Shown here in pieces: positions 1 through 19,937 of a stretch of DNA of 40,786 bases. Both the position numbers and the translations under genes were made by a program. The notes below the pieces were generated by a model. That model did not search any database. It worked only from the letters and a program-made list of their open reading frames with translations, and was not told the DNA's origin. The stretch is from Verrucomicrobiales bacterium (GTDB lineage: Bacteria > Verrucomicrobiota > Verrucomicrobiia > Limisphaerales > UBA9464): the NCBI GenBank assembly GCA_005805505.1, contig SYMJ01000241.1, forward strand, positions 1 through 40,786. The letters are read 5' to 3'. Every line of letters begins with the position of its first letter. Within the stretch, counting starts at the first letter, position 1.

Positions 1-44
1 GACCCGGCGTTCCCCGGCCCCCCGGTGCTTCCGGATCACCGACC

Positions 45-68
45 GCCCGGTGAGGGCACCGGGCCTAC
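45..68 (-). repeat. REP-like element 1 (minus orientation)
   Basis: The 8-bp arms GCCCGGTG (45-52) and CACCGGGC (57-64) pair perfectly around the loop AGGG. CTAC follows at 65-68, so the minus strand reads GTAG then the palindrome. Confidence 0.75.
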
Positions 69-100
69 AACATGTCCGTTGCCAACCAATAGCCCACCGT

Positions 101-124
101 GTAGGCCGGGTCCCAGGACCCGGC
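101..124 (+). repeat. REP-like element (plus orientation)
   Basis: GTAG at 101-104 is followed by GCCGGGTCC (105-113), CA, and GGACCCGGC (116-124), a perfect 9-bp inverted repeat. It faces opposite to the other elements in the array, giving a BIME-like pair. Position 1-8 (GACCCGGC) matches its right arm, so another copy is probably cut by the window edge. Confidence 0.72.
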
Positions 125-160
125 GTTCCCCGGCCCCCCGGTGCTTCCGGATCACCGACC

Positions 161-185
161 GCCCGGTGAGGGCACCGGGGCCTAC
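161..185 (-). repeat. REP-like element 2 (minus orientation)
   Basis: The hairpin GCCCGGTG-AGGG-CACCGGG is the same as in element 1. One extra G lies before the CCTAC, so the tetranucleotide CTAC is at 182-185. Confidence 0.75.
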
Positions 186-199
186 AACACGTCCAGACC

Positions 200-223
200 G
201 CCCGGTGAGGGCACCGGGCCTAC
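200..223 (-). repeat. REP-like element 3 (minus orientation, partial unit)
   Basis: The hairpin and CTAC tail match element 1, but the 5' part of the 116-base unit is missing. It ends 8 bases before the pilT stop codon. Confidence 0.75.
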
Positions 224-231
224 AACAAGAT

Positions 232-1314
232 TCATTTGCCGTTCGGCTTGAAACGATCGGGGTCTCGGGCCCGGGAAATCGCGGCATCGTAAGAAATTAG
301 ACACTTCGAATAGAGGTCGTAGAGACAGTTGTCCATCAGCACCGAACCATCCCGGCCGCCCAACTGCATAATCGTGTAAAGTTGATGCAATTGATTCTCG
401 CGAATCACCGACCGAGCGGCCGCAGTCATCATCAAGAGTTCGTAAGCCAAGACTCGGCGAGTCCGATCGATGGCAGGCATCAGATCCTGGGCGATGACGC
501 CCTGAAGAGAATTGGCCAACTGCAGCACAACCTGTTTCTGAGCGCTCCCCTCGAAGATCCCGACGATCCGCTCCAGCGCATGCATCGCGCTGGGGGCATG
601 GAGCGTAGCCAGCACCAGATGCCCGGTTTCCGCTGCGGTGAGCGCGGTCTGGATCGTCTCATGGTCGCGCATCTCGCCGATGCAAATAATGTCGGGATCC
701 TGCCTCAGGGCGTGGATGAGCGCATGGTTAAAGGAACGCACATCGGTCAGCACCTCCTGCTGCACCACGATGGCCCGACGGTTTTCATGAACCCGTTCGA
801 TGGGATCTTCAATGGTCAGGATCTTGCAGCGCCGCTCCCCATTGATGAGGTCGACCATGTAGTTCATGGTCGTGGTCTTGCCCGCTCCGGTGGGACCAGT
901 GATCAGGATTAACCCGTTGGTCTTACGAGCCAGTTCATCGATGCGAGACGGAAGGCCAAGTTCCTCGCGAGTCGGAAAGAGCTTTCCACAGAACCGGCAA
1001 CTCAGCTCGGTGACCCCATTGCGCCGGTAGAACGTGACCCGGATCCGACCGGCCACCGCGTGGCGGATGGAAATACACAGTTCCCAAAGCTGATCAAGCT
1101 TCTGCCGCTGCAAGTCGGTCAGGAGCGATTGGGCCATGACTTCGCAGTCCTCGGGCGACACGGCGTCTTCATCGGCCAGGAGGATCTCGCCGGTCACCCG
1201 AAAGGCGGGCGGAACTCCGACGATCACATGCAAATCGGAGGCACCCATCGACACGGCTTCGATGAGCAGTCGATCCATCCGGGAGTGGATGGCGTCGGCG
1301 ATATGAGGGTTCAT
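232..1314 (-). CDS. pilT: PilT-family twitching motility ATPase
   Basis: This is a hexameric ATPase of the type IV pilus retraction family, acting at the cytoplasmic face of the pilus machine. The 360-aa length is normal for PilT/PilU. Walker A is GPTGAGKT (140-147). The Asp-box region follows (about 168-176), the Walker B region contains DPDIICIGEMRD (about 206-217) and the His box is TGHLVLATLH (230-239). The C-terminal AIRNLIRE-like motif of PilT appears in altered form as AARSVIREN. The start overlaps the stop of the upstream TPR gene by 4 bp (1311-1314), so it is the last gene of the minus-strand run. No other pilus gene is in the window, so PilT and PilU cannot be told apart. Confidence 0.9.
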   Translation of the reverse strand: MNPHIADAIHSRMDRLLIEAVSMGASDLHVIVGVPPAFRVTGEILLADEDAVSPEDCEVMAQSLLTDLQRQKLDQLWELCISIRHAVAGRIRVTFYRRNGVTELSCRFCGKLFPTREELGLPSRIDELARKTNGLILITGPTGAGKTTTMNYMVDLINGERRCKILTIEDPIERVHENRRAIVVQQEVLTDVRSFNHALIHALRQDPDIICIGEMRDHETIQTALTAAETGHLVLATLHAPSAMHALERIVGIFEGSAQKQVVLQLANSLQGVIAQDLMPAIDRTRRVLAYELLMMTAAARSVIRENQLHQLYTIMQLGGRDGSVLMDNCLYDLYSKCLISYDAAISRARDPDRFKPNGK

Positions 1315-18959: not shown

Positions 18960-19937
18960 TTACCCGAGCGCATCGACCCGTAGATCTCGAAGCGTCGACA
19001 GATCTGACCAAGGTGCACCACGGATAGGACGCGCCCCGTCTCGGCGTTTAGACCCAAAGGACGCACGGTATCGGAAGAAAACTGCATCAACGAACTTGCG
19101 GGAGCCCAGCGCCACCCCATCGGTCAAGTGTCGGACCCTGAGTCGCAGGATTTCAGCCTCGCTCAACTTTCCTCCCTTCAAGAGCACCGAACGAATGGTT
19201 TCCCGATCCAATTCCCGCTTTGAGCTATGCCCACCAACGCCTGCCTGAACGAACATAGATTCCCTATAACGAGCTGCTGCTTGCCCCCAATTCGGCATCG
19301 AGAAAACCCTCATAATTCCTCGTTGCAAATCCCTTTGCCCTACCAAAGCCGCCGAGTAGCCGCAGAATCGATAATCCTTAGGATCACCCACCAGACCTGC
19401 CCGCACTGGATTGAGATCAATGTAAGCAGCGACCGTCCGCAAAGCCCTAGGCGAGTCCTCCACCAGCACACTTTTGAAGCGTTCCGCCCAAAGAGTACCA
19501 AAGCGTTCCGTCCGTCGATTGTACCAGCGACTGAAACGCTGTTTGAATTCCTTCATAAACACCGACACATCGCCCATTCGCCCTAGAAGCGTCTGGCGAA
19601 TGTGTCCCGGCATCTGGCCCTTGCCCTGCCCCATCATCGCATCCCGCGCCAGAACCACCAAAAAACCTTGCGACCCATAGAAACCTTCGGCCCTAAGGAA
19701 CAGCTCCTCATCACTCAACGCCACAGCCTTTGGAACCCGCAACAGCAGATGGAAATGATTCCCCATCATGCAATAAGTGATCACCTCCAACCCGCAGAAC
19801 CGAGCCAGCGGCATCAACAGATCCACCAACCGAGCCTTGCACAAATCATCCAGCAGCATCTGCCCGCCCACCGTCCGTGAAACGCAGTGGTAGACAGCAC
19901 CTTCAGAGCCCCCCCCTTTAATCCGCGCCAACCTCAT
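18960..19937 (-). CDS. RAYT-type Y1/HUH transposase
   Basis: This 325-aa protein is of the REP-associated tyrosine transposase / IS200-like Y1 family. The HUH metal motif is His61-Phe-His63 (MGNHFHLLLR), and the probable nucleophile is Tyr139 (FSRWYNRRTERFG). FGTLWAERFKSVLVED and YIDLNPVRAGLV are family hallmarks. A further 110-residue C-terminal extension includes LTDGVALGSRKFVD. The frame is intact. The flanks (18794-18959 and 19938-20040) show no GTAG palindromes. They share only a loose TTTTGAAA...CCCTGAG similarity, and CCTAAACAGT/C repeats in tandem at 18911-18930. RAYTs process REP sequences; a REP-like array is present 18.7 kb away at 1-226. Confidence 0.88.
   Translation of the reverse strand: MRLARIKGGGSEGAVYHCVSRTVGGQMLLDDLCKARLVDLLMPLARFCGLEVITYCMMGNHFHLLLRVPKAVALSDEELFLRAEGFYGSQGFLVVLARDAMMGQGKGQMPGHIRQTLLGRMGDVSVFMKEFKQRFSRWYNRRTERFGTLWAERFKSVLVEDSPRALRTVAAYIDLNPVRAGLVGDPKDYRFCGYSAALVGQRDLQRGIMRVFSMPNWGQAAARYRESMFVQAGVGGHSSKRELDRETIRSVLLKGGKLSEAEILRLRVRHLTDGVALGSRKFVDAVFFRYRASFGSKRRDGARPIRGAPWSDLSTLRDLRVDALG

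Follow-up and report, generated by a model that had tools for sequence, protein, structure and literature searches.

A GTAG-tagged REP family and its candidate RAYT transposase in an uncultured member of the Verrucomicrobiota

The stretch of DNA analysed here (the window, positions 1–40786 of contig C226, position 1 being the contig end) opens with an array of hairpins (1–226) that belongs to a genuine GTAG-tagged REP family with many dispersed, mainly extragenic copies in its own genome, G000, an uncultured Verrucomicrobiota draft of 3.62 Mb in 247 contigs, about 80% complete. We put at roughly 85% the probability that this is a BIME-type array of GTAG REPs, i.e. of non-autonomous hairpins spread as inverted A/B pairs and likely copied by the REP-associated tyrosine transposase (RAYT) encoded on contig C74. 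The features of the array and its neighbour gene are as follows:

1–8, plus strand: truncated B-type REP, 3' stem arm GACCCGGC, identical to 117–124 and cut by the contig end
1–179: tandem repeat with a period of 116 (1–63 equals 117–179, 100%)
45–68, minus strand: A-type REP GTAG-GCCCGGTG-CCCT-CACCGGGC, 0 mismatches to the genome-wide pattern
69–100: 32-base spacer between a tail-to-tail A and B, whose GTAG ends face each other
101–124, plus strand: B-type REP GTAG-GCCGGGTC-CCAG-GACCCGGC, with a 9-bp stem and a 2-base loop in this copy
125–160: head-to-head spacer, 36 bases
161–185, minus strand: A-type REP carrying one inserted base (GTAGGCCCCGGTGCCCTCACCGGGC; an additional C within the stem)
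200–223, minus strand: A-type REP, 8 bases from the pilT stop, at the position of the single REP of the congener G010
232–1314, minus strand: pilT, the neighbour gene outside the element (TIGR01420 372 bits, cut-off 319; stop at 232–234)

The three CTAC-ended hairpins reported from the letters of the window alone all carry GTAG on the minus strand (45–68, 161–185 and 200–223), and the one hairpin of opposite orientation (101–124, plus strand) does have the perfect 9-bp stem ascribed to it, GCCGGGTCC-CA-GGACCCGGC, within the general B-type form GTAG-GCCGGGTC-N4-GACCCGGC. The array also adjoins the pilT stop as claimed, TIGR01420 confirming the gene. The proposed 116-base unit had to be redrawn: the repeat is exact and its spacing is indeed 116, but the unit comprises two hairpins, one A and one B, and the third A (200–223) lies outside it. 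Because the window opens at the contig end and 1–8 is a truncated B, the array is longer than the visible part. In the head-to-head spacer, read on the minus strand, a stretch (CGGTGATCCG..CACC) similar to the resident sequence beside G010's single A is joined to GGGGGGCCGGGGAAC. The hairpins are short and GC-rich, with an unpaired GTAG at one of the feet, and outside the array the 40.8-kb window has no perfect GTAG-tagged hairpin of 7 bp or more. The array folds better than dinucleotide shuffles (z = -3.3; a single strand exceeded 200 of 200 shuffles), and no known RNA family scored above threshold at this place.

Copies of these units are scattered over the genome. A consensus scan of fetched stretches gave 62 A, B and C units (26, 31 and 5, respectively) in 33 clusters; our counts derive from pattern searches and this 24-mer scan, which misses the extra-base A unit at 161–185. 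Twenty places genome-wide match the A core 12-mer exactly; a few of them lie in ordinary sequence without a second stem arm and are not REPs. The B 24-mer was found at 23 places with at most one mismatch (reversed-pattern control 0), and the B pattern with at most three mismatches gave 60 matches genome-wide, both readings of the palindrome being counted (reversed pattern 0). A general pattern, GTAGGCCSSGTSNNNNSACSSGGC, fits 40 places without mismatch and also picked up the C-type REP, GTAG-GCCGCGTG-CCCT-CACGCGGC, which is rare (five units, including C130:3999), so that the copy number is carried by A and B. Many units are degenerate. By a home-made hexamer-based gene caller, on which the intergenic calls rest, one of the 62 units lies in a predicted gene (that of the RAYT), one lies across a gene edge and all remaining units are intergenic. 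Thirteen of the 33 clusters fall within 700 bases of a contig end, against an expectation of 9.5%, the share of the sequence lying there (P = 5e-6); the repeats broke the assembly, and the copies are therefore under-counted, 62 being a lower bound. Neither a single locus nor a set of copies mainly inside genes, the two outcomes that the original prediction had set against itself, was found: copies are many, nearly all intergenic and of alternating orientation, and together with a RAYT gene that has REPs of matching stem type on its flanks they bear out its reading of the array as REPs.

Two further observations concern the same genome. A second tandem BIME array (G000:C93:323–607), near a contig end, has seven alternating B and A units with an 87-base period. 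There is also a second GTAG REP family, D (e.g. L266–L275), of the form GTAGGGACCGATCTCCGAGCGGTCC, with 57 places within three mismatches (32 of them exact; control 0) and none in the window. Family D flanks a different RAYT in G010 (L182), of which no close copy was found in our 80%-complete genome.

The units are arranged and conserved as paired hairpins. Among 28 pairs of neighbouring units, 22 are inverted A/B heterodimers (12 tail-to-tail and 10 head-to-head), and no inverted A/A or B/B pair occurs. All 12 tail-to-tail pairs have spacers of 28–40 bases; head-to-head spacers vary from 10 to 58 bases. At the three stem pairs that the search pattern leaves free, 28 of the 31 distinct perfect-fit units are complementary throughout, where 3.9 would be expected, and six fully paired stem versions exist among the perfect-fit units. 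Of the listed A, B and C units, more than 90% have T before GTAG and every one has G after the stem. As for a fixed cleavage dinucleotide, CT stands immediately before GTAG in no more than about 18 of the 42 A and B units, and because of this inconsistency we claim no cut site.

PF01797 matches occur at 12 places in the genome. One of them, on contig C74, is a RAYT by its NF047646 score (81 bits, cut-off 80), has intact catalytic HUH and Tyr motifs (PDHIH and YVRLNPVRAG) and carries C-type REPs on either side, accompanied by a B-like partner. The RAYT genes of G000, G002, G004, G031 and G048 all have flanking REPs of this stem type, the G048 protein being more distant (52% identity). The RAYT core is under purifying selection, with a dN/dS of 0.11–0.12. 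The sole PDB relative of a close ortholog (L093) is the E. coli TnpA-REP (4ER8), with a similarity of only 24.6 bits; residues W94, Q95 and R104 of the E. coli enzyme, which contact the GTAG motif there (PMC6006769), are matched in the L093 ortholog. Because the flanks of the C74 gene are C-type, not A or B, we infer its action on A and B from their common GCC-stem and GTAG features and from the B unit inside the gene, on which grounds it most likely acts on both.

In each of the five genomes that carry a close RAYT there are five or more REP matches, as there are in 9 of the 54 other genomes. Many such REPs are present without a close RAYT in G030, G046, G010 and G014, in which the RAYT may have been lost, may be missing from the draft, or may be replaced by another enzyme. 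G030, a relative from the same family, has 165 matches to the GTAGGCC REP pattern; its best NF047646 match, L195, has no GTAG hairpins around the gene, and the RAYT-like genes L174 and L177 have no flanking GTAG hairpins either. Other RAYT types in the order are flanked by GTAG hairpins of their own (G010, G014, G046, G040, G034 and G051). We also considered as mobiliser the Y1 transposase of the window (18960–19937, minus strand) and rejected it: it has no nearby GTAG hairpin, its NF047646 score is 55.5 (cut-off 80), and in length and motifs it is like the TnpA-REP subclasses without REPs. This IS200-like protein (325 aa, motifs NHFH and YIDLNP) has similar proteins on C122, C245, C228 and C87. 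Y1 genes are cut at the ends of C87, C171, C228, C231 and C245, which suggests repeated copies.

Between their HUH and Tyr motifs, the RAYT proteins of G000, G004, G002 and G031 are longer by some 32 residues, encoded in frame by a B-type REP (G000, G004 and G002) or by two other REPs (G031); the insert is absent from the G048 protein. In-gene REPs of this kind (L042:554–577, L180:1750–1773 and L197:1168–1229) were seen in four genomes of one family. With a dN/dS of 0.5–1.45 the insert is not constrained as protein. Between G000 and G002 it has dN 0.19 and dS 0.13 (over only 32 codons), compared with dN 0.04 and dS 0.34 for the core; high dN with low dS is expected if the DNA hairpin, not the peptide, is kept. 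An in-frame REP between these motifs has been described as a hallmark of TnpA-REP subclass 2.4 (Quentin et al. 2018, PMC6006769). That the in-gene REP might be a self-limiting device, by which the enzyme would cut or bind its own gene or mRNA and so set the REP copy number, strikes us as very doubtful.

Orthologous places differ among the congeners. An orthologous pilT was identified in nine of them; the gap between pilT and tpiA is free of REPs in G001, G011 and G016, and holds one intact A in G010, one unit without the full tag in G014 and one decayed unit in G017. The right end of C74 matches the tpiA side of G010 (94.5% over 1,517 bases) and finishes in two A units and the spacer also seen in the window. 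This synteny makes C74 and the window the two flanks of a single array that the assembly split; the array lies between pilT (in the window) and tpiA (on C74), with the RAYT gene about 17 kb away. Among the lineages with 99%-identical PilT, only G000 has the expanded array. At a second locus (C162), the REP pair is present in G004, decayed in G010, G006 and G018, absent from G002, G009, G011 and G016, and replaced by another REP family in G014. Gain, decay and replacement of this kind at orthologous places fit mobile elements, as far as sequence comparison can tell. At C241 there was no clean empty site, the flanks of most congeners not being alignable across the gap, and exact insertion ends are unreadable because the flanks of the REP-free congeners are too diverged.

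On this basis, the following course of events may be proposed. The HUH-tyrosine RAYT would bind a single-stranded hairpin through its GTAG, cut it and rejoin it, and would mobilise inverted REP pairs in trans in the manner of REPINs, for which mobilisation in trans by a RAYT is itself a proposed model (PMC3116915). Cleavage of cognate REP strands in vitro has been demonstrated for the enzymes from E. coli, Stenotrophomonas and Marinomonas (PMC8266576). At the present locus, a B unit would have landed beside a single A unit downstream of pilT, and slippage or unequal recombination would then have amplified the joint 116-base segment in tandem. At the RNA level, the hairpins may serve as a putative protection of the 3' end of the pilT transcript.

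Such a role at transcript ends could also be taken for the origin of the hairpins: they would then end the transcription of pilT and similar genes as intrinsic terminators, or stabilise the 3' ends of their mRNAs, and selection instead of transposition would have spread them. The position of the REPs directly downstream of pilT agrees with this, as does the finding that, of about 17 clusters for which the genes on either side were called, 7 are situated between convergent genes. We nevertheless regard it as quite improbable: no site with a hairpin and a T-run was found, GTAG and the loop are conserved as sequence, the same units turn up in unrelated places, and orthologous places show no element, a single one, a decayed one or another family instead. 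Nor would it account for the REPs that surround the RAYT gene. A local, minisatellite-like tandem duplication with GTAG ends arising by chance would account for the 116-base direct repeat. It is hardly credible in view of some 60 dispersed units in 33 clusters, which refute it, and of the compensated stems, the regular A/B pairing and the REP-flanked RAYT; duplication accounts for no more than the array's local growth.

It is also conceivable, if unlikely, that these REPs are fossils, of a family that has ceased to move and whose RAYT has decayed or been domesticated for some other function. Domestication has been ascribed to TnpA-REP proteins elsewhere (PMC8266576), and the many degenerate units, the REP inside the RAYT gene and the several congeners that keep REPs without this RAYT would suit such a history. 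It is at odds with the core dN/dS of 0.12 and the intact HUH and Tyr motifs, with the 40 perfect fits to the family pattern, and with the confinement of the array to G000 among the lineages that share 99%-identical PilT. We favour non-autonomous REP pairs that are likely copied by the C74 RAYT.

The start GTAGGCCGG is, we presume, common to E. coli REPs and the present ones. The alternating layout is likewise that of the E. coli REP/BIME (Y, Z), and W94, Q95 and R104 are matched (4ER8). The resemblance to E. coli REPs that had been noted ends with that start: the stem of the E. coli (GTAG-3) REP has a bulge, which its enzyme requires (PMC8266576), whereas the present stems are perfect and have no conserved bulge. 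With the REPINs of Pseudomonas fluorescens SBW25 (PMC3116915) our elements share inverted doublets, ordered tandem clusters and a cognate RAYT; they differ in that tail-to-tail spacers are constant and head-to-head spacers variable, and in that the pairs are A/B heterodimers. TnpA-REP subclass 2.4 has in common with the present system the in-frame REP between the motifs, a stem foot of three G-C pairs and the WQ motif, but its HuH and Tyr motifs are NH[IFV]H and YIxNNP (PMC6006769), in place of which we find DHIH and YVRLNP, and because of this misfit we do not place the RAYT in subclass 2.4.

GTAG REPs have been described in the PVC group by Di Nocera et al. 2013 (PMC3733652), who found Opitutus terrae (Verrucomicrobia) "highly enriched" in them and reported REP dimers, clusters and REP-flanked RAYTs in the GTAG super-family. 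The features given there recur here: the GTAG tag, a 6–13 bp stem, a short loop, mostly intergenic location, head-to-head and tail-to-tail heterodimers, groups, and RAYT genes flanked by REPs; it is by these described features, not by consensus sequence, that we liken our family to the 24 numbered GTAG families (PMC3733652). O. terrae is rich in intragenic REPs (PMC3733652), in contrast to the one unit of 62 seen here. The expectation of a REP family in the Verrucomicrobiota thus holds, in that a genome-wide family is real, but the novelty implied is unsupported, since GTAG REPs of Verrucomicrobia were published in 2013 with O. terrae (PMC3733652) and in-gene REPs in 2018. The novelty lies in the present REP family, in its RAYT and in the set of orthologous sites; the kind of system was already known, and the prevailing view of REPs is unchanged by it. 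The family provides a well-resolved REP/RAYT system outside the Proteobacteria, with congener sites that are empty, single, decayed and expanded, and, with 13 of 33 clusters at contig ends, it explains part of the breakpoints of the draft genome. One order of Verrucomicrobiota holds several types of RAYT and of REP.
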